From the NCBI GenBank assembly GCA_946480295.1, contig CAMLIT010000006.1:4303-68302 (forward strand): a stretch of DNA of 64,000 nt, written 5' to 3'. The position numbers were made by a program, and so were the translations under genes. Below the pieces are notes generated by a model, which saw only the letters and a list, made by a program, of their open reading frames with translations, had not been told where the DNA came from and did no database searches. The stretch comes from an uncultured Gemmatimonadota bacterium. Its GTDB lineage: Bacteria; Gemmatimonadota; Gemmatimonadetes; Gemmatimonadales; Gemmatimonadaceae. Positions 5,592-56,820 of this stretch are shown in pieces (within the stretch, counting starts at the first letter, position 1; each line of letters starts with the position of its first letter).

Positions 5592-6128
5592 ATGATGCTC
5601 TCCGCACTCCTCGGTCTGCTGCTCGCGGCCGCGCCCGACACGACGCCGCCCACGCCGGCGCCCCCGGCGCCGTCGGCCGCGACACGACGGCTGCCCCCCG
5701 GCACCGTGGCCGACAGCCTGGTGCTGATGAAGTCACTGCGACTGCTCGTCCTGTACGTGGACGGGGTGGCGTTGCGCACGTACCGCGTCGCACTCGGCCA
5801 CGAGCCGGTCGGCCCCAAGCGCTTCAAGGGGGACGAGCGCACGCCGGAGGGGCTCTACCGCATCGACGGCCGCAACCCGCAGAGCGGCTACCACCTGTCG
5901 CTGCACGTGTCGTATCCGAACGCGGTGGATCGCGCGCGCGCGAGCCTCTACGGCAAGGAGCCGGGCGGCGACATCATGATCCACGGGCTGCCGCTGGGCG
6001 ACGAGTCGGTGGGCAGCGAGCACACGCAGTGGGACTGGACGAACGGCTGCATCGCCGTCACCGACCGCGAGATCGAGGAGCTGTGGCGCGCCGTGCCCGA
6101 CGGGACGCCGATCGACCTGAAGCCCTGA
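5592..6128 (+). CDS. Secreted L,D-transpeptidase (YkuD family)
   Basis: 178 residues with a short signal peptide (MMLSALLGLLLAAAP), a Pro/Thr/Ala-rich spacer to about residue 35 and then a YkuD catalytic domain. His131 lies in IMIHGLP and the nucleophilic Cys153 in WTNGCIAVT, the two diagnostic motifs. The domain exchanges D,D- for L,D- (3-3) peptidoglycan cross-links or attaches proteins to the wall in the periplasm. No LysM or other anchor is present, so it is a minimal secreted version of the kind close to ErfK. Divergent from the DUF6882-like gene and convergent with the YceI gene, one base apart. Confidence 0.9.
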   Translation: MMLSALLGLLLAAAPDTTPPTPAPPAPSAATRRLPPGTVADSLVLMKSLRLLVLYVDGVALRTYRVALGHEPVGPKRFKGDERTPEGLYRIDGRNPQSGYHLSLHVSYPNAVDRARASLYGKEPGGDIMIHGLPLGDESVGSEHTQWDWTNGCIAVTDREIEELWRAVPDGTPIDLKP

Positions 6129-6129: not shown

Positions 6130-6771
6130 TCAGGGAGCGCCGGCGACGCTCGCGTCGACGGTGCGGGTGGCGACGAGGGTCTCCGCGTTCGCGACGAGGT
6201 GGAACTTCACGACGACGCGGTCGCTGGCCCTGAGCATCCCGAACATGGCCGTGGGCGGCCGGATGCCGAAGTCCGTCATGAGGATCGCCACGCTGCCCTC
6301 GGCCTCGACGACGCCACCGGGGAGTCGGTCGGCCCTGACGTCCATCGTCACCTCCTGCCGCTGGCCGGCGACGACGAGGGTCCCGACGGTCTTCACCGTG
6401 TCGCCGTCCGACGCACCGGCGACCGTTCGGAAGGTCCCGACGATGTAGCTGTGCCGCGGATCCTGGCCGGCGGCGAGCGCCTGGCGGAGGGTCCGGTCCA
6501 TGGCCGCGTGCCCGCACGAGATGCTCTCGACGGGCACCCGGACGAGGACCTTCTCCAGGGACCTGGCGACCTGGGGCGCGGTGTCGAACGAGGCGTCCAC
6601 TTCGATGCTGGCGGAGAGCGCGCTGGTGGAGCACTGCCACGCGTGGAGGTTCGTGGCGCCATCCAGCCAGAGCCTGCTCTCCGGGCTCACCGCGAGGCGA
6701 GTGCCCTGCGCCCGTGCCGCGGGAGCCAGGGCGAGGAGCAGAGCCAGACTTGCCAGCGTGCGGTCGATCAT
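6130..6771 (-). CDS. Secreted YceI-family lipocalin-like protein
   Basis: 213 residues starting at the ATG at 6771, preceded by CCGGAGGGATGG; an upstream start at 6891 would place about 40 non-signal residues before the signal peptide. Residues 1-21 are a signal peptide (LASLALLLALAPAARAQG). The rest matches YceI: GATNLHAWQCSTSALSASI, VESISCGHAAMDRTLRQAL and the C-terminal MTDFGIRPPTAMFGMLRASD VVV hallmark. YceI proteins are periplasmic eight-stranded barrels that bind polyisoprenoid or amide lipids. Substrate here is unknown. Cotranscription with the upstream TIM-barrel gene is possible (166-bp gap). Confidence 0.9.
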   Translation of the reverse strand: MIDRTLASLALLLALAPAARAQGTRLAVSPESRLWLDGATNLHAWQCSTSALSASIEVDASFDTAPQVARSLEKVLVRVPVESISCGHAAMDRTLRQALAAGQDPRHSYIVGTFRTVAGASDGDTVKTVGTLVVAGQRQEVTMDVRADRLPGGVVEAEGSVAILMTDFGIRPPTAMFGMLRASDRVVVKFHLVANAETLVATRTVDASVAGAP

Positions 6772-11785: not shown

Positions 11786-12089
11786 GCGGGGAGGGATGGG
11801 CGTCGAGGCGAATCTCCCGGGACGCGGCGGGATGTCAAGCGATGGGGTGTTTGGGTGGCGCTCGTGTGATGGGGTGTGGATGCGCGAGGCGAGGGAGGGG
11901 GGCCCCGTCGCCCGCTCGGCGATCCGGCGACGACCGTGCAGGTTATTGCGCGGGTGCCGCGCTGCATAACGCGCGGGGGGCGCAGGTGCCCGCCTCGTAA
12001 ACCGCGGCGTGATGAGCGGTTGGCGCGGCGGCCGAGCGCCGTGGCGGGGAAAGGCTGCGCGCGGTTGCAGTGTGTCACCGGCCGTCGCA
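11786..12089. other. 304-bp gene-free stretch before the cassette islet
   Basis: Lies between the divergent GH31 start and the first attC-like site. I see no convincing ORF, no integrase and no clear terminator. The segment next to the cassette (about 11940-12060) becomes richer in short CGCG and GCGCGG runs. It is the place where an attI site or an integrase gene would be expected in a complete integron, and neither is visible. Confidence 0.5.
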
Positions 12090-12133
12090 GTCTAAAGCGA
12101 CAGTGTTTTCGCGCGCGCGAAAGGGCGTTAGAC
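12090..12133 (+). other. Short attC-like site, left edge of cassette
   Basis: Begins GTCTAAA (an RYYYAAC box with its last base changed) and ends GTTAGAC (perfect GTTRRRY box) at 12127-12133, so six of seven end bases pair. Between them is a perfect 16-base palindrome, TTTCGCGCGCGCGAAA. At 44 bases it is shorter than ordinary attC sites (about 57-140), so it may be a truncated or hybrid site. The cassette gene starts 22 bases after it, the normal distance for an integron cassette. Confidence 0.55.
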
Positions 12134-12836
12134 GTGCACGACCTCTGGTGTTCGAATGGGCTTCAGCGACTTCGTCCCCTTCGTCCAATCCCTGCGACCC
12201 CTCGTCAGCGAGTCGCCCAGCGCGGCGGACGCATGGCGCGCACTCCGTGCTCACGAGCGAGCCATCGGCCACGCAGTCACCGAGGTGCCGGACGGCGACA
12301 TCGATGCCGAAGTCGCACTCGTCAGCACGCAGCTTCAGCGCATCCTCCGCGAGTCACCTCCGCCGCCGGGGCTACAGCTGCTGTATTTTGGGCTCTTCGC
12401 AGCGGCGAATCCGGAGACGCTCGAGGAGGAAGCGGGCTTCTACGTGGCGGGAACCACGCGAGCGCTGCCTGTCGTCATCGAGTCGAGCTCAGAGCTCGCG
12501 GGTGATGTCCTGGATTACGAGCCGGAGAACCGGCACCTGGAAAGTCCTCTGCTCCAGCGGATCAAAGCGGCGGCGCTCGCGGACGATGCGGACTATCATA
12601 GGTACGACTATGCTCTGATGCTTGGCGCCGCCGCCGTGCTGAGCCTATACGCTGTGCGGCTGCTGGGCATGCCGATCCGCGTCGTTGTCGGCTTCGACTC
12701 CGGCGATGCCGTGGAGCTGCATGTGTAGAACGCGATGCCGTACGTCTAACGATGCAATGAAGCTGACGGGCGACTCTCGGATGGCGTCGGCTGCGCCGCC
12801 GCTCTCATAGGGCTCGCCCGCAGCTTACTGCGGGCG
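12128..12836 (+). mobile_element. Putative integron gene cassette
   Basis: Runs from the G/TT crossover point of the left attC-like site to that of the well-formed right site and holds one ORF in the same direction as the sites, with 22 bases before and 15 after it. This is the architecture of a mobile gene cassette. The interior looks lower in GC than the flanking genes. No IntI integrase is seen within the window, so the array would be of the integrase-less (CALIN) type unless the integrase lies elsewhere. Confidence 0.65.
12156..12728 (+). CDS. Hypothetical cassette-borne protein
   Basis: 190 residues, acidic and mostly helical, with no signal peptide; one hydrophobic segment near the end (YALMLGAAAVLSLYAVRLLGMP, about residues 151-172) could be buried or a single membrane helix. 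The N-terminus FSDFVPFVQSLRPLV and the stretch LQLLYFGLFAAANPETLEEEAGFYVAG suggest a small globular all-alpha protein. I recognise no family. Codon use is visibly less GC-biased than that of neighbours, in line with acquisition on a cassette. Position between two attC-like sites is the main evidence that it is mobile. Confidence 0.7.
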   Translation: MGFSDFVPFVQSLRPLVSESPSAADAWRALRAHERAIGHAVTEVPDGDIDAEVALVSTQLQRILRESPPPPGLQLLYFGLFAAANPETLEEEAGFYVAGTTRALPVVIESSSELAGDVLDYEPENRHLESPLLQRIKAAALADDADYHRYDYALMLGAAAVLSLYAVRLLGMPIRVVVGFDSGDAVELHV

Positions 12837-12842
12837 TTAGAC
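12744..12842 (+). other. attC recombination site (59-base element)
   Basis: 99 bases. R'' is GTCTAAC (12744-12750) and R' is GTTAGAC (12836-12842), perfect complements matching RYYYAAC/GTTRRRY. The inner L'' and L' boxes also pair: AAGCTG near 12760 with CAGCTT near 12820, with an unpaired extra base on one side as in functional single-stranded attC folds. GGGCGA near 12768 pairs with TCGCCC near 12813 to extend the hairpin. The site begins 16 bases after the stop of the cassette ORF and ends 30 bases before hicB. Confidence 0.85.
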
Positions 12843-12872
12843 AGCAGCCGGGCGTTGGCGTAAGTTCAGGCT

Positions 12873-13094
12873 ATGGAACTCCAGCTCACCGCGGTCTTCC
12901 GCCAGGTGCCCGAAGGCTACATCGCGTTTGTCGAGGAGCTGCCCGGCGCGAACACGCAGGGCGCCACGCTCGAGGAGGCCCGGGCGAATCTGCAACAGGC
13001 GGTCGAGCTCACGGTGGAGGCGAACCGAGCGCTCAGTGAGGAGGAGCTCCGGGGGGCGGACGTGATCCGGGAGCCGCTCCGCCTGACGGCGTGA
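12873..13094 (+). CDS. hicB: HicB-family antitoxin
   Basis: 73 residues of the short HicB type: a beta strand MELQLTAVFRQVPEGYIAFVEELPG, then TQGATLEEARANLQQAVEL, the conserved partial RNase-H-like fold. The usual C-terminal DNA-binding domain is absent, as in many upstream-antitoxin arrangements. It would bind and neutralise HicA and may need the complex for autoregulation. GTGA overlap with hicA shows tight coupling. It begins 31 bases after the attC site, so the pair is likely the next cassette of the array. Confidence 0.88.
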   Translation: MELQLTAVFRQVPEGYIAFVEELPGANTQGATLEEARANLQQAVELTVEANRALSEEELRGADVIREPLRLTA

Positions 13095-13276
13095 AACGCG
13101 TCGAGCTGGTCCGGCATCGGGAGGCGCATGGCTGTCAGCTCTTACGCGAGGGCGGCAGCCATTCTGTTTTCGTGAACCGGTCCGCCCGAAAGACGTCCAC
13201 GGTTCCGCGGCACCGGGAGATCAATGAGTTTCTCGCGCGAAAGATCTGCCGCGATCTCGAGATCCCGGAACCCTGA
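13091..13276 (+). CDS. hicA: HicA-family toxin (mRNA interferase)
   Basis: 61 residues with the double-stranded-RNA-binding-like fold of HicA: KRVELVRHREAHGCQLLREG, then GGSHSVFVN containing the catalytic His24, and TVPRHREINEFLARKICRDL, all characteristic. HicA cleaves mRNA and arrests growth unless bound by HicB. It starts at a GTG overlapping the hicB stop by four bases. No second attC is apparent downstream, so the right boundary of this cassette cannot be placed. Full length and intact key residue suggest a functional toxin. Confidence 0.9.
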   Translation: MKRVELVRHREAHGCQLLREGGSHSVFVNRSARKTSTVPRHREINEFLARKICRDLEIPEP

Positions 13277-13723
13277 GCCGGCATCGCGACCCTGCTGTCG
13301 AAGTCGAGCCCGGAGCAAAGGGGGCCCGCGTCATCGGCCACACGCGCCGTCCGCGCGTCGGCGCCGTGTTCTCAGGGTCTGGTTCGCGGCCAGCGCGTTG
13401 GTGAGCGTGGCCACCTTTCCCGATCCCGTCGCGCTGTCGCTCCTCGCCTTTGGGTCGCGCTGGTCTGCACTGGCTTCTATCCCGAGGCGCGTCTTGCCGT
13501 CCGCGCGATCGCGCGCGAGGTCGATGGGGGAACCGTCAAGGCGTGCTGAGGCCACGAGTCCCGCCGCCGGGTAGCGCTGAAGGAGACGGCGCTCGGATGG
13601 AAGCCTTGCGGCGGACGGCCTGTAGAGCGCATCGTGGCAGGTAAGCGTCGGGTCGCCTCGTCGGCCGCGCGCCGCTTTGCCCGAGCACTGGATCATCACG
13701 GGGTGTCGTGAACGGGAGGCGCC
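13277..13723. other. 447-bp gene-free stretch after hicA
   Basis: No ORF here is convincing on either strand. I looked for another GTTRRRY/RYYYAAC pair with an intervening hairpin and found none. A minus-strand frame (13331-13699) is open but has no recognisable protein pattern. This may be eroded cassette DNA or the remains of a lost gene. Confidence 0.5.
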
Positions 13724-14095
13724 ATGCAGCCCCTGCGCTGGTCAGAGTTCGATCCGGACGACGACCCGACTCCAGAGCCGCTGGAAGCGGGATACCTGGA
13801 GCCGCCGCGGCGCCGTCCACCGACGGCGGTCGGCACGGCCACGCCGCGCCCACCGACGCCGCCGCGGCGCCCGCGCGCTGACCCCGAGGGGCTCACGTTG
13901 CTGCAACGGCGGGCGCGTACCGCGCTCGCGGGGCTGTTCACGGCGGCGGGGACGAGCGTTGCGCTCGCGACGGATCTGTGGTCGGTGGCGGCAGCCGGCA
14001 TCGGAGTCGCCGCTCTCGGTGTCCTCGTCGGATATCGCGCCTGGCGCGCTCCGAGTGTCCATTCGCCGCGGCCGCGCCGCCGGCGGCCCCGCTAG
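13724..14095 (+). CDS. Small membrane protein with Pro-rich N-terminus
   Basis: 123 residues with a GGGAGG site before the ATG. Residues 1-55 are acidic then Pro/Arg-rich (PPRRRPPTAVGTATPRPPTPPRRPR); residues 62-105 form two close hydrophobic segments (TALAGLFTAAGTSVALA and VAAAGIGVAALGVLVGYRAW), so probably a two-helix inner-membrane protein with a basic C-terminal tail. No family recognised. Confidence 0.6.
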   Translation: MQPLRWSEFDPDDDPTPEPLEAGYLEPPRRRPPTAVGTATPRPPTPPRRPRADPEGLTLLQRRARTALAGLFTAAGTSVALATDLWSVAAAGIGVAALGVLVGYRAWRAPSVHSPRPRRRRPR

Positions 14096-14195
14096 CGCCG
14101 CGGGGGCTTCGCCCGTGCAGAAGGTCGCCTCGTGAAGCCCACCATAGTCTCGGGCAAGGCGAGCAAGTGGGTCGACCGCGGCGAGGAGGACTAGC

Positions 14196-28451: not shown

Positions 28452-30113
28452 ATGACCAAATTCTCGATCAAGTCGGCCCGCGGGGTCGCGGCCGTGCTGC
28501 TCGCGCCGATGCTCCTCGGCGTCGGCCTGAGCTGCACGAACCTGACCGAGGTGCCGCACGACGCGCTCACGCCGGAGAACGCGTTCACCTCCGACGCGTC
28601 CATCCTCGCCGGCGTCGCCGGCGTCTACTCCACCCTCCGCGACGTCGAGGGGAACGGCTCGTACGAGTCGATGCAGGACCTGACGACCGACGTCTCGGTC
28701 GTGCCGACGCGCGGCAGCGACTGGCTGGACAACGGCCAGTGGCTGGACATCCACCACCAGACGTACACGCCGAACAGCAACGGCACCCTCGGCCTGCTCA
28801 ACGGCGACTGGAACGCGATGTTCGGCGCCGTGGCCAAGGAGAACCTGATGCTCGACGTCGTCGCGAAGAGCCTCGGGACCAAGGACACCGCCGCCGCCGG
28901 GAAGCTCGCCGCCGAGCTGCGGCTGCTCCGCGCCTGGGACTACTACATGCTCCAGGACATGTGGGGCGGCGTCCCGCTCGTCACGTCGACGGAGCTCAAG
29001 CAGTATCCGAGCGTGTCGCGCGACTCGATCTTCCGCTTCATCTCGTCGGAGCTGCAGTGGGCGCGCCAGCGCCTGCCCGTCGCCTGGCCGCCGCAGTACT
29101 ACGGCCGCGTGACCAAGGGCGCCGCCAACGCGATCCTCGCGAGCCTGTACCTGAACGCCGCCGTCTTCACCAAGGACAGCAAGGGGATCAACCCGACGGG
29201 CTACAACTCCTGCATGACCGTCAACGTGACGGTGGACGGCGCGTCGGAGGACGCCTGCCAGGCCGCCATCGACGCAGCGACGGCGGTGATCGACGAGAAG
29301 GACGCCGACGGCAACCCCGTCTACCAGCTCGAGGACAACTGGTTCAAGAACTTCAGCATCGACAACAAGAGCTCGACGGAGAACATCTTCGTCATCGAGC
29401 ACGTCCTCGGGTCGCAGGGGATCGGCGGCAGCTGGCCGATGTGGACGCTGCACTACAACCAGCTCACCACCGGCTGGGGCGGCCCGTGGAACGGCTTCGC
29501 CACGACCGCCGAGACCTTCGCCAAGTTCGACACGGTGAACGACGTCCGGGCGAAGATGTGGCTGTGGGGCCGGGCGATGAGCTTCGACAGCCCGGGCACG
29601 CCGGTGAACGATCGCCAGGGCAAGCCGCTCTACTTCACCGACACCATCGGCAACCTGAGCGCCGCCTCGGAGGGTGAGGGCGTGCGCTTCAACAAGTTCC
29701 CGCCGGTCACGGGCAAGGAAGCCACGACGGGCCAGTCGAACCCGAACGACTTCCCCTTCTTCCGCCTCACGGAGATGTACCTGATCCGGGCGGAGGCGGA
29801 GAACGAGAAGGGGAACACCGCCGGCGCGGTCACCGACCTGCTCAAGATCCACAACATGCGGGACAAGGCGCCGATCGCGAACCTGAGCGGCCAGCAGGCG
29901 ATCCGCGACGCGATCATGCGCGAGCGGCTGCTGGAGTTCGCGATGGAGGGGAAGCGCCGCTCGGACATGATCCGCTACGGCACCTTCACCACGTGGACGG
30001 AGAAGTCGAAGAACGGCACGAGCGCGCCGCGCGATTACCACGTCGTCCTCTTCCCGGTGCCCGCGCCGCAGCTGGCGTCGAACCCGCTGCTGACGCAGAA
30101 TCCGGGGTACTGA
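28452..30113 (+). CDS. susD: SusD/RagB-family substrate-binding lipoprotein
   Basis: 553 residues with a lipoprotein signal ending LGVGLSC (Cys28), then the TPR-like SusD fold: TEVPHDALTPENAFTSDASILAGVAGVY, AAELRLLRAWDYYMLQDMWGGVPLV and the C-terminal RLTEMYLIRAEAENEKGNTAGAVTDL with FAMEGKRRSDMIRYG, all typical. It caps SusC on the outer surface and captures glycans. Starts 28 bases after susC, so the two form an operon. The glycan specificity cannot be read off. Family length about 500-600 fits. Confidence 0.95.
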   Translation: MTKFSIKSARGVAAVLLAPMLLGVGLSCTNLTEVPHDALTPENAFTSDASILAGVAGVYSTLRDVEGNGSYESMQDLTTDVSVVPTRGSDWLDNGQWLDIHHQTYTPNSNGTLGLLNGDWNAMFGAVAKENLMLDVVAKSLGTKDTAAAGKLAAELRLLRAWDYYMLQDMWGGVPLVTSTELKQYPSVSRDSIFRFISSELQWARQRLPVAWPPQYYGRVTKGAANAILASLYLNAAVFTKDSKGINPTGYNSCMTVNVTVDGASEDACQAAIDAATAVIDEKDADGNPVYQLEDNWFKNFSIDNKSSTENIFVIEHVLGSQGIGGSWPMWTLHYNQLTTGWGGPWNGFATTAETFAKFDTVNDVRAKMWLWGRAMSFDSPGTPVNDRQGKPLYFTDTIGNLSAASEGEGVRFNKFPPVTGKEATTGQSNPNDFPFFRLTEMYLIRAEAENEKGNTAGAVTDLLKIHNMRDKAPIANLSGQQAIRDAIMRERLLEFAMEGKRRSDMIRYGTFTTWTEKSKNGTSAPRDYHVVLFPVPAPQLASNPLLTQNPGY

Positions 30114-39331: not shown

Positions 39332-40696
39332 ATGACGAGTTCGCGGCAGCGCCAGAGCTTCTGGCAGATGTTCAACCTGAGCTTCGGCTTCCTCGGCATC
39401 CAGTTCGGCTGGGGGCTCCAGATGGCCAACATGTCGGCCGTCTACGAGAAGCTGGGGGCGCGCTCCGATCAGGTGCCCCTCCTCTGGCTCGCCGCGCCGC
39501 TGACGGGCCTCCTCGTCCAGCCGATCATTGGCGCGCTGAGCGACCGCACGTGGGGGCGGCTGGGGCGCCGCCGCCCCTACTTCCTCGTCGGCGCCATCCT
39601 CGCGTCGTCGGCACTCTTCGTCATGCCGACGTCGAGCACCCTGTGGATGGCCGCCGGCCTGCTCTGGATCCTCGACGCCTCCATCAACGTGTCGATGGAG
39701 CCCTTCCGCGCCTTCGTCGCCGACAAGTTGGCGCCGAGCCAGCGCACGGCCGGGTTCGTGCTCCAGTCGTTCTTCATCGGCGTCGGCGCGAGCCTCGCCA
39801 ACGCACTCCCGCTGGTCTTCAGCTGGCTCGGCGTGAGCGGCAGCACGGCGAGCGGGATTCCGCTCTCCGTGAAGTACTCCTTCCAGGTGGGCGCGCTCGT
39901 CTTCCTCCTCGCCGTCATCTGGACGGTCGTGACGACTCCGGAGAATCCGCCGGAGGACCTCGAGGCATGGGAGCGCGACCGGCGCACGCGCCGCGGCGCG
40001 CTGGACCTGCTGCGCGAGGTCGGCTCGGCGATCCGCGAGATGCCGGTGACGATGCGGCAGCTCTCGGTCGCGCAGTTCTTCACGTGGATGGGTCTCTTCT
40101 GCATGTGGCTCTTCTTCGTGCCCGCGACCGCGCGGCACGTCTTCGGAGCCACGGATCCGAAGTCGGCGCTCTACACGCAGGGGATCGAGTGGGGCGGCTT
40201 CACCTTCGCCTTCTACTCGATCACCTGCTTCATCGTCGCCCTCGTGCTCCCCACTATCGCCGACCGCACGAGCCGCAAGGCGGTCCACATCGTGTCGCTG
40301 CTCTGCGGCGCGGCCGGGCTGCTCTCGGTGTACCTGATGCACGACAAGTACCTGCTCCTCCTCAGCATGGTCGGCGTGGGGATCGCCTGGGCCTCGGTGC
40401 TGTCCATGCCGTACGCGATCCTGTCCACCGCCGTCCCGCCGAAGCGGATGGGCGTGTACATGGGCGTGTTCAACTTCTTCATCGTGACGCCGGAGATCGT
40501 CTCCGCCGTCGGCTTCGGCCCGCTGATCCGGGCGACCTTCGGCAAGGACAATCCCAACACGCCGCTCTACATCGTCATGCTCGGCGGCGCCTTCCTGATC
40601 GCCGCCGCCGCGTGCATGACGCTCGTCCACGACGCCGGCGAGCGCGAATCGGTGGAGCGGGAGCTGGAGGTGGCGGGGGAGGTGGTGGCGGTCTAG
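39332..40696 (+). CDS. MFS sugar transporter of the SLC45/sucrose-maltose type
   Basis: 454 residues, twelve predicted helices. The family markers are GFLGIQFGWGLQMANMSAVYEKLGA at the N-terminus, QPIIGALSDRTWGRLGRRRPYFLVGA (the DRxxGRRRP loop) and the later helices with VGIAWASVLSMPYAIL. Members of this group carry sucrose, maltose, maltodextrin or glucose by proton symport. It starts 60 bases after the trehalase gene in the same direction, so it probably imports glucose released by trehalase or other glucosides. Ends 610 bases before the next gene. Confidence 0.88.
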   Translation: MTSSRQRQSFWQMFNLSFGFLGIQFGWGLQMANMSAVYEKLGARSDQVPLLWLAAPLTGLLVQPIIGALSDRTWGRLGRRRPYFLVGAILASSALFVMPTSSTLWMAAGLLWILDASINVSMEPFRAFVADKLAPSQRTAGFVLQSFFIGVGASLANALPLVFSWLGVSGSTASGIPLSVKYSFQVGALVFLLAVIWTVVTTPENPPEDLEAWERDRRTRRGALDLLREVGSAIREMPVTMRQLSVAQFFTWMGLFCMWLFFVPATARHVFGATDPKSALYTQGIEWGGFTFAFYSITCFIVALVLPTIADRTSRKAVHIVSLLCGAAGLLSVYLMHDKYLLLLSMVGVGIAWASVLSMPYAILSTAVPPKRMGVYMGVFNFFIVTPEIVSAVGFGPLIRATFGKDNPNTPLYIVMLGGAFLIAAAACMTLVHDAGERESVERELEVAGEVVAV

Positions 40697-43633: not shown

Positions 43634-44455
43634 GTGACACAGAACTCGAATGCGTTCGCCCTCGACGGCCGCGTCGCCGTCGTCACGGGCGGCTATGGAG
43701 TGCTCGGCGGCACCATCGCCTCCGGGCTCGCCGCGGCCGGTGCTCGCGTCGCCGTCCTCGGGCGCCGGCGGGAGGAGGCCGAGGCCAAGGTCGACGAGAT
43801 CCGCCGCGCCGGCGGCGCCGCGATGCCGCTCATCGCCGACGTCCTCGACGAGGCGCAGCTCAAGACGGCACTGGCCGAGCTGCTCCGCGCGTGGGGCGGC
43901 ATCCAGATCCTCGTCAACGCCGCGGGCGGCAACGTCACGCGCGCGCGCAACGACGATCGCAGCGTCTTCGAGGTGCCGCTCGATGCCTTCGACGAGGTGC
44001 TGCAGCTCAACCTGCACGGCAGCGTCGTGCCGTCGCTCGTCTTCGGGTCGGCGATGGCCGAGGGGCGCGCCGGCTCCATCGTCAACATCTCGTCCATGGC
44101 GGCGATGCGGGCGATCAGCGGCGTTCTGGGCTACTCGATCGCCAAGACCGGGATCGACAGCCTGACGCGCTGGCTCGCCGTGGAGCTGGCCCGGAAGTAC
44201 GGAGACGGCATCCGGGTGAACGCGGTCGCGCCGGGCTTCTTCATCGCGACGCAGAACCGGAACGTGCTGATCAAGCCGGATGGCGGCTACACGGATCGGG
44301 CGAAGACGATCGTGTCGCACACGCCGATGGGGCGCTTCGGGCGGCCGGAGGAGCTCATCGGGCCGGTGCAGTGGCTGTGCAGCGATGCGGCGTCGTTCGT
44401 GACGGGGACGGTCATCCCGGTGGACGGCGGCTTCAGCGTCTACAGCGGGGTTTGA
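43634..44455 (+). CDS. SDR oxidoreductase, D-mannonate oxidoreductase-like
   Basis: 273 residues. NAD(P)-binding motif TGGYGVLGG, the NAAG strand, and catalytic Ser154, Tyr167, Lys171 (NISSMAAM, GYSIAKTG). The end VTGTVIPVDGGFSVYSGV is typical of the SDR group that includes fructuronate/mannonate reductases (YjmF-type). It would interconvert fructuronate and mannonate in glucuronate catabolism; an uronate dehydrogenase role is an alternative. GTG start. It is the first gene of the xylan region; the following gene starts 182 bp further on. Confidence 0.75.
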   Translation: MTQNSNAFALDGRVAVVTGGYGVLGGTIASGLAAAGARVAVLGRRREEAEAKVDEIRRAGGAAMPLIADVLDEAQLKTALAELLRAWGGIQILVNAAGGNVTRARNDDRSVFEVPLDAFDEVLQLNLHGSVVPSLVFGSAMAEGRAGSIVNISSMAAMRAISGVLGYSIAKTGIDSLTRWLAVELARKYGDGIRVNAVAPGFFIATQNRNVLIKPDGGYTDRAKTIVSHTPMGRFGRPEELIGPVQWLCSDAASFVTGTVIPVDGGFSVYSGV

Positions 44456-44574
44456 GGGAAATGTGATCGGCGGGCGGGCCGGTCGGGCCCGGTGGCGGGC
44501 GAGGGGGCGAGCAAGGAGGGGCGGGTGACTGGCTTGACAGTTCGTGTGTGCGACGGCCAACGTGGAGAGAGGTA

Positions 44575-44588
44575 AGATCACTTGATCT
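44575..44588. promoter_or_regulatory. Palindromic operator candidate before the enolase gene
   Basis: AGATCA, CT, TGATCT is a perfect 14-base palindrome in the 182-bp gap before 44638, lying about 50 bp upstream of the start. A TTGACA hexamer sits at 44534-44539, 35 bp before the palindrome; no good -10 follows at the usual distance. The GntR/FadR regulator at 55774 is a candidate binder. I saw no second copy upstream of the other xylan transcription unit. Confidence 0.4.
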
Positions 44589-44637
44589 CGCCCCGGCCCG
44601 TCCGTTCGCCCCTCTCTCGAGACCTCCTCGCCTCCGC

Positions 44638-45878
<1,241 letters not shown>

Positions 45879-45882
<4 letters not shown>

Positions 45883-48053
45883 GACACCTCCTCGCCGCGG
45901 TCGCGCTCCTCCTCGTCGGTGCCGCGTCCGTGGCGCGCGCCGAGGATGGCTACGATCTCTGGCTGCGCTATCACCGCGTCGCCGACGGCGCGCGGCTCGG
46001 CGAATACCGGGGCGCGATCCGGTACCTGGTGGTGGACGGCGACTCGCCCACGCTGCGCGCCGTGCGCGAGGAGCTGACCACCGGGCTGGGCGGACTGCTC
46101 GCCGAGTCGATCCCGTCGCGGACGACCGTGATGGGCGACGGCGCCGTCATCGCCGGCACGCCGGCGAGCTCGCGCGTGATCGCGTCGCTCTCTCTATCCG
46201 ACGCGCTGCGCCAGGCGGGGGACGAGGGCTACGTCCTTCGCGCGATGACCGTGCACGGTCGGCGCGCCATCGTCATCGCCGCCAACCGCGACGTGGGCGT
46301 GCTGTACGGCGCGTTCGCCCTGCTGCGCCAGCTCCAGACCGACGCGCCGCTGCGGGGGCTCGCGGTCGTGAGCGCGCCGAAGGTCAGGCTCCGCATCCTC
46401 GACCACTGGGACAACCTCGACGGCAGCGTGGAGCGCGGCTACGCCGGGTCGTCGCTCTGGCAGTGGAGCGAGCTCCCCGGCCACCTCTCCCCTCGGTATC
46501 GCGACTACGCGCGCGCCAACGCCTCGATCGGCATCAACGGCGCGGTGCTGACGAACGTCAACGCGAACGCGCAGGTCCTGACGCCGGCGTACCTCGCGAA
46601 GGTCGCGGCGCTGGCGAACGTCTTCCGCCCCTACGGGATCCGCGTCTACCTCACCGCGCGCTTCAGCGCGCCGATCGAGATCGGCGGGCTGAAGACCGCG
46701 GATCCGCTCGATCCGGCGGTGCGGGAGTGGTGGAAGGGGAAGGTCGACGAGATCTACCGCTACATCCCCGACTTCGGCGGCTTCCTCGTGAAGGCCAACT
46801 CCGAGGGGCAGCCCGGCCCGCAGGACTACCACCGCAGCCACGCGGACGGGGCGAACATGTTCGCCGACGCGCTGGCGCCGCACGGGGGCGTGGTGATGTG
46901 GCGGGCGTTCGTCTACAGCAACGCCGTCCCCACCGACCGCGTGAAGCAGGCGTACGACGAGTTCCACCCGCTCGACGGCCAGTTCCGGCCGAACGTGCTG
47001 CTCCAGGTGAAGAACGGTCCGCTCGACTTCCAGCCGCGCGAGCCCTTCCACCCGCTCTTCGGCGCGATGCCGAAGACGCCGACGATGCTCGAGGTGGAGA
47101 TCACCAAGGAGTACCTCGGCCAGGACACGCACCTCGTCTACCTCGGGCCGGTGTGGAAGGAGGTGCTCGACGCGGATACCTGGGCCGACGGGCGGGGCTC
47201 CACGGTGGGCAAGGTGATCGACGGGTCGCTCCAGCATTACCCGATCACCGGGATGGCCGGCGTGTCGAACGTCGGCAGCGATCGGGACTGGACCGGGTCG
47301 CAGTTCAACCAGGCCAACTGGTACGTCTTCGGCCGGCTCGCGTGGGACCACGACCTGTCGGCGGCGGCGATCGCCGACGAGTGGATCCGCATGACCTTCT
47401 CCAACGATCCCGCGGTCGTGGGGAAGATCCGCGAGATGATGCTCGCCTCGCGCGAGGCGGTGGTGAACTACATGGAGCCGCTCGGGCTCGTGCACATCAT
47501 GCACGCCGGCTCGCACTACGGCCCCGGGCCGTGGGAGGGGCGCGGCCGTCCGGACTGGACGCCGGTCTACTACCACCGCGCCGACTCGCTCGGCATCGGC
47601 TTCGACCGCACCGCCACCGGAAGCGACGCGGTCGCGCAGTACTTCCCGCCCGTGCGCGACCGCTTCGCCAGCCTCGCGACGGTGCCCGATTCGTTCCTCC
47701 TGTTCTTTCACCACGTCCCGTGGGGCTACCGCATGCGCTCCGGCCGCACGTTGTGGGACGAGCTCGCGCTGCACTACCAGGCCGGGGTGGACACCGTGCG
47801 CTCGATGCAGCGGACGTGGGACTCGCTGCGTGGCGCGATCGACCCCGAGCGCTTCCGCGACGTGCAGTCGTTCCTCGCGATCCAGGAGCGCGAGGCGGAG
47901 TGGTGGCGCAACGCTGCGCTGCTCTACTTCCAGACCTTCTCGCATCGGCCATTGCCGGCGGGCGTCGAGCCGCCGACGCACACGCTCCAGTACTACGAGT
48001 CCATCCGGTGTCCGGCGAATCCACGCAAGGCTCGCTGCGACGCCATCCCCTGA
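45879..48053 (+). CDS. aguA: GH67 alpha-glucuronidase, secreted
   Basis: 724 residues from a GTG at 45879 that overlaps the previous stop. A signal peptide ([19 protein letters not shown]) precedes [13 protein letters not shown], the classic GH67 opening. Domain order follows the family: a beta-sandwich, the barrel with [16 protein letters not shown] (Glu309), [29 protein letters not shown] and GWxx-like later motifs ([11 protein letters not shown]), and a helical C-terminus. It cuts (4-O-methyl-)glucuronic acid from the non-reducing end of xylo-oligosaccharides. Many GH67 are cytoplasmic; this one appears exported. I did not assign catalytic residues individually. Confidence 0.93.
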
Positions 48054-48114
48054 CCGCGCGGCAGCGGCACACTGCGCGCCCGACGTCCGACCTCTCGCCC
48101 CGGGAATCTCCGCC

Positions 48115-49299
48115 ATGACCGCCAGGAAAGCGCAGGACGCGTACACGCCTCGCCCCGAGGACCACTTCACCTTCGGCCTGTGGACCGTCGGCAACGTCGG
48201 GCGCGACCCGTTCGGCGATCCGGTGCGTGCGCCGATTTCGCCAAACGATAGCGTCCGCAAGCTCGCGGAGCTGGGCGCCTACGGCGTGAACTTCCACGAC
48301 GACGACCTCGTGCCGCGCGGCTCCTCGCCCGCGGAGCGCGACCGGATCGTCAAGGAGTTCCGGCAGGTGCTCGCCGACACCGGCATGAAGGTGCCGATGG
48401 CGACGACGAACCTGTTCGGCGATCCGGCGTTCCGCGACGGCGCGTTCACGAGCAACGATCCGCGCGTCCGCGCCTACGCCCTCCAGAAGACGATGCGCGC
48501 CATGGATCTCGGCGCCGAGTTCGGCGCGGAGATCTACGTGTTCTGGGGCGGCCGCGAGGGGACGGAGACGAACGCCGCCAAGGATCCGCGTGAGGCGGCG
48601 AAGTGGTTCCGCGACGCGCTGAACTTCCTCTGCGAGTACTCGCGGTCGCAGGGCTACAGCTACCGCTTCGCGCTCGAGCCCAAGCCGAACGAGCCGCGCG
48701 GCGACATCTACCTGCCGACGATCGGCCACGCGCTCGCCTTCATCGCGACGCTCGACCACCCGGAGATGGTGGGGCTCAACCCCGAGGTGGCGCACGACAC
48801 GATGGCGGGGCTCGACTTCACCCACGGCGTCGGGCAGGCGCTCGAGGCGGGGAAGCTCTTTCACATCGACCTCAACGACCAGAAGCCGGGGCGCTACGAC
48901 CAGGACTTCCGCTTCGGCAGCGTCAACCTCAAGGACACCTTCTTCCTCGTGAAGCTCCTCGAGGACGCGGAGTACGACGGCATGCGCCACTTCGACGCGC
49001 ACGCCTACCGCACCGAGGACTACGACGGGGTGTGGGACTTCGCGGCGGGATGCATGCGGACGTACCTGATCCTCAAGGAGAAGGCCGCGCGCTGGAACGC
49101 GGACCCGGAGATCCGGCAGCTGCGCGATGCGCTCGCTCGGCGTGGTGGAGCGGGGAAGCCCGAGCGCGTGACGTTCAGCCCCGAGCGCGCGAAGCAACTC
49201 AAGGAGCAGTCGCTCGACCTCGCGGCGATCCGGGAGCAGGGGTACGCCTACGAGCGCCTCGACCAGCTGACCGTGGAGGTGCTGCTCGGCGTGCGCTGA
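48115..49299 (+). CDS. xylA: Xylose isomerase
   Basis: 394 residues of the short actinobacterial-type (group I) isomerase. Markers: [26 protein letters not shown] with the catalytic His, [26 protein letters not shown] with metal-binding Glu, [12 protein letters not shown] and [20 protein letters not shown]. It converts D-xylose to D-xylulose in the cytoplasm with Mg/Mn. Starts 61 bases after the glucuronidase stop, so the two share a transcription unit. A matching xylulokinase is not found in the window. Confidence 0.96.
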
Positions 49300-49315
49300 C
49301 CGTGGCCTCGTGGGG

Positions 49316-49347
49316 CGGCCGACCGGCACGTGCGCTCCGGTCGGCCG
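49316..49347 (+). terminator. Strong hairpin after xylA
   Basis: CGGCCGACCGG, loop CACGTGCGCT, CCGGTCGGCCG: a perfect 11-bp stem beginning 17 bases after the xylA stop. No T tract. It separates xylA from the esterase gene, so the region from 49513 on probably has its own promoter within 49348-49512. Confidence 0.6.
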
Positions 49348-49512
49348 TGGCGCAAGTCGTATGTGCACCCACGGTTGCGTGTGCGTCCGCCGACTTGCCG
49401 TGGCATGTGACGTCTCTCATTCTATGCCGGTCGATTCGTCCGATGACTTGTTGACCAGTCTCGATCGCCGGCCGTCCGCCACTCTCACGCTCTCCACCTG
49501 CAGCTGCCAGCC

Positions 49513-50790
49513 ATGCGCGCTCGTTTCGGACGGCTCGTGCTTCCGCTCGTCTTCGTGCTCGGTGCGGCGTGCACGGCGCGCGTCCGGCCCGATCCCCGTC
49601 CGCGCGTCGATCGCGCCGTCCTGACGCGCGCGCAGGCGCTGGCCGGTGACTCCGCCGCCGCGCGCTGGGTCGGAACGTGGGGCGCGGCACCGCAGCTCAC
49701 CGAGCCGCGCAACATGCCCCCCGCGCCGGGGCTGAGCGCCAGCACCCTGCGCCAGGTCGTGCACCTCTCGATTGGCGGCGACACGCTGCGCCTCCGGCTC
49801 TCGAACGCCTTCGGCAACGGCCCGCTCACCATCGGCGCGGTGCACCTCGCGCCCTCGCTCGGCGACGGCGCCATCGCACAGCCGCGCGACGTGGCGATGA
49901 CCTTCCACGGGCAGCCCGGCGTCACCCTGCAGCCGGGCGACGCGGCCACCTCGGACCCGATCGCGTACGAGGTCGCCCCCCTGTCGGACCTCGCCGTCAC
50001 GATGTTCGTGGCGAACGCGCCGAGCGGCGTGACGGGCCATCCGGGATCGCGCACCACGTCGTATCTCCAGGCCGGCGACGACGTGTCCGCGTCGGCGCTG
50101 CCCGACGCCGCGCGCACGGACCACTGGTACCTGCTGACCGGCATCGATGTCGTCGATCCGCCTGGGAGGGCGCTCGTCGTCCTCGGCAACTCCATCGCCG
50201 ACGGACGCGGCTCCGGCACGAATCGGCAGGACCGCTGGCCCGACGACCTCGCGCGACGCCTGCATGCCAATCGCGAGACGGCGGACGTCGCGGTGCTCAA
50301 CGAGGGGATCGGCGGCAACTGCGTGCTGCGGGCGTGTCTCGGCCCCGCCGGCATGGACCGCCTCGAGCGCGACGTGCTGGACGCGCCAGGCGCGCGCTGG
50401 CTGATCGTCAGCGAGGGCGTGAACGACATCGGCGGCGCGCGGACGGCGCAGGGCGCCGACTCGGTCGCGCAGGGGCTGATCGCCGCCTATCGCGAGATCA
50501 TCGCGCGGGCGCACGCGCGCGGGATCCGCGTCTACGGCGTCCCGATCCTCCCCTTCGGGGCTTCGTTCTACGACTCGCCGGACCACCAGCGCGCGCGCGA
50601 CGCCGTGAATCGGTGGATCCGCACCAGCCATGCGTTCGACGCCGTCCTCGACCTCGATGCCGCGATGCGCGATCCGGCGCAGCCGACGCGCCTGCGCTCC
50701 GACGTTGACAGCGGCGACCACCTGCACCCGAACGAGCTCGGATACCGCGTCATGGCGGACGCGATCGACCTCCAACTCTTCCAGCCCTGA
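49513..50790 (+). CDS. SGNH/GDSL-type esterase lipoprotein
   Basis: 425 residues, with a lipoprotein signal (LVLPLVFVLGAAC). Residues 50-215 form a beta-sandwich (RWVGTWGAAPQL, RLRLSNAFGNGPLTIGAVHLA), then an SGNH hydrolase: block I is LGNSIADG with Ser227 (Asn instead of the usual Asp), block II GIGGN, block III SEGVNDIG, and the DHLHPN Asp/His pair. Similar two-domain enzymes deacetylate plant polysaccharides. In this locus an acetyl-xylan esterase function is likely, but this is inference. It is the first gene of an operon that runs to 56493. Confidence 0.85.
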   Translation: MRARFGRLVLPLVFVLGAACTARVRPDPRPRVDRAVLTRAQALAGDSAAARWVGTWGAAPQLTEPRNMPPAPGLSASTLRQVVHLSIGGDTLRLRLSNAFGNGPLTIGAVHLAPSLGDGAIAQPRDVAMTFHGQPGVTLQPGDAATSDPIAYEVAPLSDLAVTMFVANAPSGVTGHPGSRTTSYLQAGDDVSASALPDAARTDHWYLLTGIDVVDPPGRALVVLGNSIADGRGSGTNRQDRWPDDLARRLHANRETADVAVLNEGIGGNCVLRACLGPAGMDRLERDVLDAPGARWLIVSEGVNDIGGARTAQGADSVAQGLIAAYREIIARAHARGIRVYGVPILPFGASFYDSPDHQRARDAVNRWIRTSHAFDAVLDLDAAMRDPAQPTRLRSDVDSGDHLHPNELGYRVMADAIDLQLFQP

Positions 50791-50802
50791 TGAGAAGGTC
50801 TC

Positions 50803-53145
50803 GTGAGTAGCGTTACGACCATGGAGCCGGCGGGCCGGATGGAGCGGCCGCCGTACCGCGACGCGGCGCTGCCGATCGAGCAGCGCGTGGCCGATCTCCT
50901 CGCCCGCATGACGCTGGAGGAGAAGGCGGCGCAGATGATGTGCGTCTGGCAGAAGAAGGCCGACATGCTCGTCGACGGCCAGGGCAACTTCGACCACGAG
51001 AAGGCGCGGCGCGCCTTCGCCGACGGCCACGGCATCGGGCAGGTGGGCCGGCCGAGCGACGCCGGCAGCACGCCCACCGAGCCGCGCCGCGGACGCGGAC
51101 CACGAGCGCAGGCGGAGCTCACGAACGCCATCCAGCGCTTCTTCGTCGAGAACACGCGGCTCGGCATCCCGGTCGTCTTCCACGAGGAGTGCCTGCACGG
51201 CCACGCCGCGGTCGGCGCCACGAGCTTCCCCCAGCCGATCGCGCTCGCCGGCACCTTCAATCCCGAGCTCGTCGAGTCGCTCTACGGCATGACGGCGGAG
51301 GAGGCGCGCGTGCGCGGCACGCACCAGGCGCTGACGCCCGTCGTGGACGTGGCCCGCGACCCGCGCTGGGGTCGCGTCGAGGAGACCTTCGGCGAGGATC
51401 CGTACCTCGTCACGCAGCTCGGCCTCGCCGCCGTGCGCGGCTTCCAGGGCGACGCCACCTTCCACGACCGGAAGCACGTCATGGCGACGCTCAAGCACTT
51501 CGTCGCGCACGGGCAGCCGGAGGGCGGGATGAACTGCGGCCCGGCGAACGTCTCGCCGCGCGAGCTGCGCGAGATCTTCCTCCCGCCCTTCCGCGCGGCC
51601 GTGCAGCAGGGCGGGGCGGTGAGCGTCATGGCATCCTACAACGAAGTGGACGGCATCCCGTCGCACGCGAACCGCTGGCTGCTGCGCAAGGTGCTGCGGG
51701 ACGAGTGGGGCTTCCAGGGATTCGTCGTGTCGGACTACTACGCGATCTGGGAGCTCGAGGACCGTCCCGACACCCACGGGCACTTCGTGGCGGAGGACAG
51801 GAAGCAGGCGTGCGCGCTCGCCGTCCGCGCGGGCGTCAACATCGAGCTGCCGGAGCCCGACTGCTACCTCCATCTCGTGGCGCTGGTGCGCGAGGGAACG
51901 CTCGCCGAGGACGAGCTGGACGCGCTCGTCGCGCCGATGCTGCGCTGGAAGTTCCAGATGGGACTCTTCGACGATCCATACGTCGATCCCGACGTAGCCG
52001 ACCTCGTCGTCGGCTCGGAGAGGAATCGCACCCTCGCGCTGGACGCCGCGCGCGAGGCGATCACGCTCCTGAAGAACGACGGCGCGGTGCTGCCCCTCGA
52101 CCCGGCGGCGATCCGCTCCGTGGCCGTCATCGGCCCGAACGCGAACCGCAGCCTGCTCGGCGGCTACAGCGGTGTGCCGAAGTACGACGTCACGGTGCTC
52201 GACGGCATCCGCGGGCGCGTCGGTGACCGCGTGCGCGTGCTCCACGCCGAGGGGTGCCGCATCACGATCGGCGGCTCGTGGAACGAGGATGCCGTCGTGC
52301 CGAGCGATCCCGAGGAGGACCGCCGCCTGATCGCCGAGGCGGTGGCCGTCGCCCAGCAGGCCGACGTCGTCGTCCTCGCCATCGGCGGCAACGAGCAGAC
52401 GTCGCGCGAGGCGTGGTCGCGCAAGCACATGGGCGATCGCGCGAGCCTCGAGCTGATCGGGCGGCAGGACGAGCTGGTGGACGCGATCGTCGCCACGGGG
52501 AAGCCGGTCGTGGCGCTGCTCTTCAACGGCCGCCCGCTGGCCATCACGCACCTGGTGGAGAAGGTGCCGGCGATCCTCGAGTGCTGGTATCTCGGGCAGG
52601 AGTGCGGGCGCGCCGTCGCGGACGTCCTGTTCGGCGTCGTCACGCCCGGCGGCAAGCTGCCGATCAGCTTCCCGCGCTCGGCCGGGCACCTGCCCGTGTA
52701 CTACAACCACAAGCCCTCGGCGCGTCGCGGCTACCTCTTCGACGATGCCTCGCCGCTCTTCCCGTTCGGCTTCGGCCTGAGCTACACCACCTTCGCCCTC
52801 TCCGACGTGCGCCTCGCGAAGGAGGTCATCGGGCGTGGCGAGTCCACGAAGGTCACCGCGACGGTGACGAACACCGGGCAGCGGCCGGGCGCGGAGGTCG
52901 TGCAGCTCTACGTCCGCGACCGCGTGAGCTCGGCGACGCGGCCGGTGAAGGAGCTGAAGGGATTCCGCAAGGTCTGGCTCGGCCCCGGCGAGTCGGCGAG
53001 TGTGGAGCTCGAGATCACGCCGGAGACGCTCGCCTTCTACGATGCTGACATGCAGTACGGCGTCGAGCCGGGCGAGTTCACGATCATGCTCGGCACGTCG
53101 TCGCGCGACGAGGACCTGCAGCTGCTGGCGCTGCGGGTGCAGTGA
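50803..53145 (+). CDS. GH3 glycosidase without signal peptide
   Basis: 780 residues from a GTG; a GAGAAGG site precedes it. The N-terminus is a typical cytoplasmic sequence (no signal). Features: LPIEQRVADLLARMTLEEKAAQM, RLGIPVVFHEECLHGHAAVGAT, KHFVAHGQPEGG and nucleophile Asp311 in FVVSDYYAIWEL; the second alpha/beta domain around 420-620; and a C-terminal fibronectin-III-like domain. Such GH3 enzymes are beta-xylosidases or beta-glucosidases; here intracellular xylo-oligosaccharide hydrolysis is expected. Stop overlaps the transporter start by four bases (GTGA). Confidence 0.9.
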   Translation: MSSVTTMEPAGRMERPPYRDAALPIEQRVADLLARMTLEEKAAQMMCVWQKKADMLVDGQGNFDHEKARRAFADGHGIGQVGRPSDAGSTPTEPRRGRGPRAQAELTNAIQRFFVENTRLGIPVVFHEECLHGHAAVGATSFPQPIALAGTFNPELVESLYGMTAEEARVRGTHQALTPVVDVARDPRWGRVEETFGEDPYLVTQLGLAAVRGFQGDATFHDRKHVMATLKHFVAHGQPEGGMNCGPANVSPRELREIFLPPFRAAVQQGGAVSVMASYNEVDGIPSHANRWLLRKVLRDEWGFQGFVVSDYYAIWELEDRPDTHGHFVAEDRKQACALAVRAGVNIELPEPDCYLHLVALVREGTLAEDELDALVAPMLRWKFQMGLFDDPYVDPDVADLVVGSERNRTLALDAAREAITLLKNDGAVLPLDPAAIRSVAVIGPNANRSLLGGYSGVPKYDVTVLDGIRGRVGDRVRVLHAEGCRITIGGSWNEDAVVPSDPEEDRRLIAEAVAVAQQADVVVLAIGGNEQTSREAWSRKHMGDRASLELIGRQDELVDAIVATGKPVVALLFNGRPLAITHLVEKVPAILECWYLGQECGRAVADVLFGVVTPGGKLPISFPRSAGHLPVYYNHKPSARRGYLFDDASPLFPFGFGLSYTTFALSDVRLAKEVIGRGESTKVTATVTNTGQRPGAEVVQLYVRDRVSSATRPVKELKGFRKVWLGPGESASVELEITPETLAFYDADMQYGVEPGEFTIMLGTSSRDEDLQLLALRVQ

Positions 53146-54545
53146 CCCACATCCAACGACGGATCCGAATCGTGCACGGCGAACGGTTGTCGGTGAAGGA
53201 GAAGGTCGGCTACGGCATCGGCGATGCCGCGGCGAACTTCATCTTCCAGACGATGATCATGTTCCAGCTCGCCTTCTACACCGACGCCTTCGGGATCACG
53301 GCGGTGGCGGCGGGCACGCTCTTCCTCGTCGTCCGGGTCTTCGATGCCGTGTTCGACCCGATCATGGGCGTCGTGGCCGATCGCACGAACACGCGCTGGG
53401 GGAAGTTCCGCCCGTGGGTGCTGTGGACGGCGGTGCCGTTCGGCATCATGGGCTTCCTCACCTTCTTCACGCCGGACCTGAGCACGTCGGGGAAGCTGGT
53501 GTACGCGTACGTCACGTACATCCTCCTCATGATGGTGTATTCGGCGAACAACCTCCCCTACTCGGCGCTGAGCGGGGTGATGACCGGCGACGTCGCGGAG
53601 CGTACGAGCCTCTCGCAGTACCGCTTCGTCTTCGCCATGATCGCGCAGCTCGTCATCCAGGGGCTCGCCTGGCCGATGGTGAACCGCTTCGGGCACGGCA
53701 GCGTCACCCACGGCTACCAGGTGACGATGGGGATCTTCTCCGCGCTCGCCGTGCTCTTCTTCTTCGTGACCTTCGCGACGACGCGCGAGCGGATCCAGCC
53801 GGCGCCCGAGCAGCGCACGTCCGTCCGGCAGGACTTCTCGGACCTCGCGCACAACGGCCCGTGGCTGGCGATGTTCGTCCTGACGATCGTGCTCTTCGTC
53901 ACCCTGGCCCTGCGCGGCGGCGTCGTCCTCTACTACTTCAAGTACTACGTCCATCGCGAGGATCTCTTCAGCATCTTCAACGTGCTGGGGACGGGCGCGA
54001 CGATCGTCGGCGTGATCCTCTCCAAGCCGCTCGCCCTGCGCTTCGGGAAGCGGGACCTGTTCATCGCGGGGCTCTTCTTCACCGCGCTGTTCACGGCGGC
54101 CTTCGTCGTCGTCCCGCCGGCGGCGTACGCGACGATGATCGGGCTGGAGATGCTGCGGCAGTTCGCCTACGGCTTCACCATCCCGCTGCTCTGGGCGATG
54201 ATGGCCGACGTCGCCGACTTCTCCGAGTGGAAGAACCACCGGCGCGCCACGGCGGTCGTGTTCTCGGCGATCGTGTTCGGGCTGAAGGCGGGGCTGGGGA
54301 TCGGCGGCGCGCTCGGCGGCTACCTGCTCTCGCTCTTCGGCTACGTGCCGAACGCGGCGCAGTCCGCCCACGCGCTCGAGGGGATCAGGCTCACCATGAG
54401 CATCTTCCCGGCGATCGCCTTCTTTCTCTGCGTCGTCTGCCTCTTCTTCTATCGGATCGACAGGCGTCTCGAGCACCAGGTCGCGGACGACCTGGCCGAA
54501 CGGCGTCGGCAGCTCGTCCCCACGCCCGTGCCCGTCGCCACCTGA
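53142..54545 (+). CDS. GPH-family glycoside/pentoside/hexuronide symporter
   Basis: 467 residues, twelve helices. The GPH signature is evident: GYGIGDAAANFIFQTMIMF, FDPIMGVVADRTNTRWGKFRPW and YALEMLRQFAYGF-like helix 10 sequence. Relatives include MelB, XynP/XylP and UidP, which carry xylosides, melibiose or glucuronides with Na+ or H+. Gene context favours xylo-oligosaccharides or glucuronosyl-xylosides. GTG start overlaps the GH3 stop. Long C-terminal basic tail (residues 440-467). Confidence 0.9.
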   Translation: MTHIQRRIRIVHGERLSVKEKVGYGIGDAAANFIFQTMIMFQLAFYTDAFGITAVAAGTLFLVVRVFDAVFDPIMGVVADRTNTRWGKFRPWVLWTAVPFGIMGFLTFFTPDLSTSGKLVYAYVTYILLMMVYSANNLPYSALSGVMTGDVAERTSLSQYRFVFAMIAQLVIQGLAWPMVNRFGHGSVTHGYQVTMGIFSALAVLFFFVTFATTRERIQPAPEQRTSVRQDFSDLAHNGPWLAMFVLTIVLFVTLALRGGVVLYYFKYYVHREDLFSIFNVLGTGATIVGVILSKPLALRFGKRDLFIAGLFFTALFTAAFVVVPPAAYATMIGLEMLRQFAYGFTIPLLWAMMADVADFSEWKNHRRATAVVFSAIVFGLKAGLGIGGALGGYLLSLFGYVPNAAQSAHALEGIRLTMSIFPAIAFFLCVVCLFFYRIDRRLEHQVADDLAERRRQLVPTPVPVAT

Positions 54546-54560
54546 TCCCCCCCATCAGTC

Positions 54561-55721: not shown

Positions 55722-55773
55722 TCACGCCGCGACCAGGCGGCCTGCAGGCACTCGTTCAGGGAGAGAGGGCGCA

Positions 55774-56493
55774 ATGAAGAACACCTTCGGACCGGTGACG
55801 AAGCGGAACTTGTCCGATACGCTCGCGCGGCGGATCCGTGGACTGATCCAGAGCGGCGAGTATCGGCAGGGCGATCGCCTGCCACCGATCCTGGAGATGG
55901 CCCGGCGCTTCGGCGTCGGGCACCCCACGATTCGCGAGGCGCTGAAGAAGCTGGAGGCGACCGGCGTCGTCGAGATCCGCCACGGCTCCGGCGTGTACGT
56001 CACGCGCAGCGAGGACGTGCTGGTGCTCGCCAGCCGCGACTACAGCGGCACGGTGACGAAGAAGCTGTTGCTCGACCTGATCCGCGTCCGCATCCCGCTC
56101 GAGGTTCAGTCGGTGACGGACGCCGTGGAGAACGGCGCGCCCGAGCACTTCGCCGAGATGCGCCGCCTCCTCGCCACCGCGAGCGAGAGCCTCGACGACG
56201 ACGAGGTGCTCAACTCCGTCAACATGGCCTTCCACCGGCAGATCGCCCTCGCCTCGGGGAACACCGTGCTGACGCAGATGCTCGACGTGCTGCACGACCT
56301 CTTCTCCGACGAGCAGCGGCTGATCATCGACATCTTCGGCTCGCGGAAGCGCGACCACGCCGAGCACGTCGCCATCCTCGAGGCGCTGGAGGAGCGCGAC
56401 CGCGCCCTCGCCAGCGCGCGCATGCGCACGCATCTCGAGGGCGTCCAGGCGGCGGTGCTGCGCTGGGATCCGGAGCGGACGCCGGTGAGCTGA
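55774..56493 (+). CDS. GntR-family regulator, FadR subfamily (FCD domain)
   Basis: 239 residues. Winged HTH of GntR type at residues 10-77 (LSDTLARRIRGLIQSGEYRQGDRLP, FGVGHPTIREALKKLEATGVVEIRHGSGVYVT), then an FCD ligand-binding domain with SVNMAFHRQIALASGNTVL and the distal His patch EHVAILEALEERD. FadR-type GntR proteins sense uronates or other organic acids in many pentose/uronate loci (UxuR, ExuR). A GGGAGAGAGGGC site precedes the ATG. Last gene of the operon and the probable regulator of the xylan genes. Confidence 0.9.
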   Translation: MKNTFGPVTKRNLSDTLARRIRGLIQSGEYRQGDRLPPILEMARRFGVGHPTIREALKKLEATGVVEIRHGSGVYVTRSEDVLVLASRDYSGTVTKKLLLDLIRVRIPLEVQSVTDAVENGAPEHFAEMRRLLATASESLDDDEVLNSVNMAFHRQIALASGNTVLTQMLDVLHDLFSDEQRLIIDIFGSRKRDHAEHVAILEALEERDRALASARMRTHLEGVQAAVLRWDPERTPVS

Positions 56494-56527
56494 GGCGCGG
56501 GACGCGTCCGGGCTGGCGACGTCGCGC

Positions 56528-56760: not shown

Positions 56761-56782
56761 GAGGAGGCCGGACGCAGCGACG

Positions 56783-56818: not shown

Positions 56819-56820
56819 CG

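Follow-up and report, generated by a model that had tools for sequence, protein, structure and literature searches.

Integrons of Gemmatimonadota

A passage of PMC8618304 names Gemmatimonadota among the phyla with integrons, and an extract of PMC9024848 covers the integron of the 1.1-Mb replicon of Gemmatirosa. Since integrons of this phylum were already published, the locus described here adds no new phylum to those in which cassettes are captured, contrary to what the initial annotation had proposed for a Gemmatimonadota host, and it leaves the known phylum spread of integrons unchanged. On plasmid 1 of Gemmatirosa kalamazoonensis KBS708 (NZ_CP007129.1), the covariance model R1 described below returned 82 attC matches at E ≤ 1, 76 of which had E ≤ 0.001, and one IntI scored above its family cut-off (422.5 bits). 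This IntI (856836-857774, in the region 855400-858200) lies on the same strand as the attCs, indicating that intI reads in the cassette direction; the usual layout is an intI divergent from the cassettes. An attI-like sequence, GTCTAA-TCCGC-GTTAGCC, separates intI from the first attC. Of the six weakest attC matches (E > 0.001), five lie at the IntI-distal end of the array (812140-816006), as if attCs decay there.

In contrast to that integron, the window (the whole stretch of 64,000 nucleotides analysed here) contains one apparent attC, no IntI and a hicBA pair without an attC. The two nevertheless share a hicB-hicA cassette, 75.6% identical at the DNA level and with the same gene order and orientation, and their attCs are alike: 20 aligned Gemmatirosa attCs measure 94-98 nt and in most cases have the same L boxes and GCGTTAG ends, and the site in the window has AGCTGACG...CGCAGCT and GCGTTAG in common with Gemmatirosa attCs. 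The left spacer differs (GATGCAATG in the window, mostly GAATCGTTG in Gemmatirosa), as does the loop. We consider it probable that the locus is what remains, in decayed form and with two cassettes, of a Gemmatimonadota-type integron array. It comprises the following features.

12090..12133, + strand: left boundary site, with a sound R' box at 12127-12133 and an 11-base direct repeat with the attC end
12128..12836, + strand: putative cassette 1, 709 bases, orf190 plus attC, with ends set by the R' boxes
12156..12728, + strand: orf190, predicted cassette gene for a 190-aa protein without a family match
12744..12842, + strand: apparent attC site, with R'' at 12744-12750, L'' from 12760, an extra A at 12766, L' ending at 12826 and R' at 12836-12842
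12873..13094, + strand: hicB, 73 aa, antitoxin-like, just below the cut-off for UPF0150 (PF21748)
13091..13276, + strand: hicA, 61 aa, HicA toxin, overlapping hicB by 4 bases
13277..13303, + strand: putative tail of the hicBA cassette, ending where a lost R'' box would have stood

A single attC site with canonical geometry

The ends of the site at 12744-12842, GTCTAAC (R'') and GTTAGAC (R'), are complementary at 7/7 positions and have the RYYYAAC/GTTRRRY form. Inside them AAGCTG pairs with CAGCTT, followed by one unpaired A, the extrahelical base, and then by CGGG/CCCG. This geometry agrees with the perfectly complementary ends, inner boxes and unpaired base noted in the initial annotation, and two covariance models accept the site. 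Both R-to-L spacers are 9 nt long, the same pair as in 12 of the 25 attC candidates compared, which came from the surroundings of integron-integrases at five loci and from the Planctomycetota array JAEUHV010000393.1 (L001); in the other 13, one or both spacers are off by 1 to 3 bases.

A scan of both strands of the 64 kb for the exact consensus (RYYYAAC followed by GTTRRRY within about 160 nt) returned this site as its sole match. It also had the top score (13.0) in a laxer home-made attC scan of the window, in which further weak candidates at 13091-13234, 46793-46865 and 39424-39533 scored 6.4 to 8.2; none of these three appeared at E 10 under R1.

Both covariance models were home-built rather than taken from IntegronFinder. 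R1 comprised 21 attC cores out of the 25 candidates, from Planctomycetota genomes, from the class of G004 and, in two cases, from L001, with neither Gemmatimonadota nor the window included; R2 comprised 20 Gemmatirosa attCs, again without the window. The E-values, which are rough owing to short calibration, were 4.8e-9 under R1 (46.9 bits on the + strand, against 13.6 bits on the - strand) and 4.6e-10 under R2 (43.5 bits). The sole other row at E ≤ 10 under R1 was 28769-28826 (16.2 bits, E 0.13), within a predicted gene, and the next row in the rest of the 64 kb under R2 reached 13.0 bits. In unfiltered mode R1 recovered only an inner piece of the site (13.9 bits), which we attribute to the length limit of that mode, since unfiltered R2 recovered the whole site. 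The bottom strand is the one expected to recombine, and it is established that IntI acts on this strand in its folded form. Here its folding energy is -29.9 kcal/mol (z -5.32), a value equalled by 0 of 200 shuffles. By its sequence, the site thus looks like a genuine attC.

orf190 and cassette 1

We take IntI to cut at G|TTAGAC, which would place the limits of cassette 1 at 12128-12836. The gene orf190 has the arrangement of a cassette gene: it has the same orientation as the attC, lies directly before it and is bounded on the left by an R' box. This box (12127-12133) lies 22 nt 5' of the start codon, and 15 nt separate the stop codon from the attC; of the spacings given in the initial annotation, the 22 nt ahead of orf190 and the 30 nt ahead of hicB were confirmed, and the 16 nt between stop and attC is corrected to 15. 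The further remark of that annotation that the interior is lower in GC than the surroundings holds as well, with 65.2% in 12128-12836 and 66.4% in 12843-13276 compared to 71.3% for the window (64000 bases, no N). The GC3 values of orf190 (0.78) and hicA (0.742, 61 codons) fall below those of a reference of 18 + strand genes hand-picked from the predicted genes of the window (0.944 +/- 0.029, minimum 0.87), and hicB (0.892) is within their range.

The product of orf190 had no match in Pfam, NCBIfam or PADLOC, and no relatives were found in plasmid records. A relative with 38% protein identity is encoded in L001, also directly 5' of an attC, with its stop codon within the R'' box. This array belongs to another phylum, and its attCs differ from the site in the window in measuring 71-72 nt and in having a right spacer of 12 nt; its two best attCs belonged to the R1 training set, and its genome encodes an IntI of 444 bits on another contig. 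This was the only one of the seven genome-located relatives of orf190 to lie close to a clear attC. A distant relative occurs in JAHREJ010000022.1, a record titled Bacillus subtilis that may be mislabelled or contaminated; by eye, the adjacent stretch resembles a Stenotrophomonas locus.

The left boundary

The initial annotation had described two attC-like sites flanking orf190 and had proposed running an attC covariance model on the window. With our home-built models the right-hand site passed and the left-hand one, at 12090-12133, did not: unfiltered R1 gave 7.9 bits (E 1.7) and unfiltered R2 gave 5.2 bits (E 2.8), and the bottom-strand fold of these 44 nt is at the level of shuffled sequence (z -0.15, 86 of 200 shuffles as good). 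Its R' box, GTTAGAC at 12127-12133, is the sole convincing part, and marks the left boundary of cassette 1.

These failures, together with the lack of any further attC in the window under R1 and R2, would be expected had a chance GTT-type site at 12127, where no larger array ever stood, received cassette 1 or a two-cassette circle through an IntI encoded elsewhere in the genome. The R''-like box nearby, which matches at 6/7 positions, is of little weight against such off-target insertion, as a box at least 6/7 like GTCTAAC occurs at attC distance from 4.1% of window positions. We nonetheless regard this explanation as improbable. The same 11 bases, GGGCGTTAGAC, stand at the left box and at the attC end, and these two copies, at 12123 and 12832, are the only ones in the window; the GCGTT before and in R' is invariant in 20/20 aligned Gemmatirosa attCs. 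Moreover, GTCTAA occurs four times in all over the two strands of the 64 kb, each time in the boxes of one of the two sites. A former attC at 12127 fits the shared 11 bases and the confinement of GTCTAA better than a chance site does, and the rest of 12090-12133 is possibly an eroded or internally deleted attC. The full GTTAGAC motif is found in the window only at 12127 and 12836 on the + strand and only at 12744 on the - strand.

A hicBA pair that seems to have lost its attC

As the initial annotation had stated, a HicBA pair directly follows the attC, with hicB-hicA at 12873-13276 and the start of hicB 30 nt 3' of the site. HicA matches HicA_toxin (PF07927) above the cut-off (E 5.2e-11), and HicB matches only UPF0150 (PF21748), at 26.3 bits compared to a cut-off of 27.3; a HicA toxin domain thus stands beside a HicB-type partner, as in a toxin-antitoxin system. 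A blastn search with 11786-14195 against 72,556 plasmid records yielded one match, at hicBA, to Gemmatirosa kalamazoonensis plasmid 1. This collection presumably holds few Gemmatimonadota, and therefore a closer chromosomal relative of hicBA may exist. Identity to the proteins of the Gemmatirosa cassette is 56/73 for HicB and 46/61 for HicA. There, hicBA is flanked by attCs at 5838-5935 and 6430-6526 (L101 coordinates), starting 53 nt after the one and ending 20 nt before the other.

No attC was detected 3' of hicA with R1 or with unfiltered R2, and hicBA therefore has no attC of its own in the window. In register with the Gemmatirosa cassette, 16 of the 27 bases 3' of the hicA stop codon match, a stretch that closes where the R'' position ends; as many matches or more are reached at 0.066% of window positions, and the next two 27-base blocks have 9 and 7. 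Because the likeness reaches as far as the R'' position and falls off beyond it, the attC of the pair seems to be missing from roughly R'' onward. Between attC and hicB, the leader also aligns with Gemmatirosa from its first base (AGCA), but is only suggestive, since 6.75% of random pieces score equally. Over the approximately 900 bases 3' of hicA (13277-14195) a codon-usage caller predicted no gene, and this stretch is possibly eroded sequence.

The missing attC and the ordinary GC3 of hicB would also suit a resident pair of the flank beside which cassette 1 arrived as the only integron-derived part. Such an origin of hicBA appears unlikely, given the 30 nt between attC and hicB, the likeness that reaches the R'' position and the fact that the one match among the plasmid records is itself a cassette.

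Origin of the locus

There is almost no chance that the inverted repeat at 12744-12842 resembles an attC by accident and is a common hairpin, for example a transcription terminator: its position 15 nt 3' of a stop codon would suit one, but the boxes, 9-nt spacers, extra base, asymmetry between strands and E-values under both models fit an attC.

What is seen at the locus is a canonical attC geometry, a cassette-like order, orientation and spacing, a base composition that deviates in orf190 and in hicA, and, for both neighbouring genes, relatives carried on cassettes. The reading of the region as integron cassettes put forward in the initial annotation is borne out by the attC-bounded hicBA of Gemmatirosa and by the relative of orf190 that is a cassette gene in the Planctomycetota array. 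The locus would work in the manner of an integron array and very probably stems from one; most likely it is what is left of a mobile cassette array, and arrays of this kind are already known in Gemmatimonadota. Counting against this reading are the presence of one attC only, the rejection of the left site by both models, the lack of an attC after hicA, the fact that only one of seven genome-located relatives of orf190 lies near a clear attC, the non-significant likeness of the leader, and a GC3 of hicB within the range of the other genes.

A profile search of the six frames of the 64-kb window found no IntI-like frame at E ≤ 10, in agreement with the reported absence of IntI, and the window thus lacks a complete integron. 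The profile combined 37 integrase frames taken from a set of 60 loci and recovered its control, the integrase of L091, which may not be independent because its region corresponds to L005, one of the 60 loci. Of the two classes offered by the initial annotation, a CALIN or the remnant of a mobile array, we favour the latter. The locus resembles CALIN elements in having an attC-bearing cassette without an IntI in the window, but has one attC instead of two or more. An extract of PMC9024848 gives two or more attC without an integron-integrase as the IntegronFinder 2.0 default for a CALIN, and states that single-attC cases can be true. As only one attC passes the models, the locus is a single-attC cassette remnant and not a CALIN by that default.

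In the decayed remnant that we favour, integron activity would have set cassette 1 (orf190 plus attC, 12128-12836) beside the hicBA cassette (from 12837). The left site would be an eroded attC, deletion or decay would have removed the attC of hicBA, beginning at its R'' box, and IntI would lie elsewhere in the genome or be gone. Excision of cassette 1 would then still be possible only with an IntI in trans that accepts the left box, and hicBA would no longer be able to move alone as a cassette. The toxin-antitoxin nature of hicBA may help hold the remnant in place.

That one type of hicBA cassette occurs both in the large integron of Gemmatirosa and in the decayed remnant described here points to a sharing of cassettes among Gemmatimonadota, and orf190 represents a putatively cassette-borne protein family open to functional testing. 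A more far-reaching and rather unlikely possibility is that this family combines a confidently predicted structure lacking a significant solved-structure match with carriage by integrons between phyla (Gemmatimonadota and Planctomycetota), and that the attC-less hicBA cassette helps fix its neighbour in the chromosome, whereby a mobile array would become a permanent gene acquisition.

Surroundings of the locus

The GH31 protein encoded to the left of the locus has its best isolate-named match in Gemmatirosa kalamazoonensis (71% identity), a match of 69% in a Longimicrobiaceae MAG and a top match of 79%; the other named matches among the 120 listed are to Acidobacteriota and others. Together with the Gemmatirosa plasmid as the one blastn match of 11786-14195, this makes a Gemmatimonadota the probable host. 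Further along the window, 43634-61238 constitutes a xylan-use region coding for GH67, GH10, GH43 and two GH3 enzymes, an MFS_2 sugar transporter and a GntR regulator, as well as enolase-like and xylose-isomerase-like proteins.
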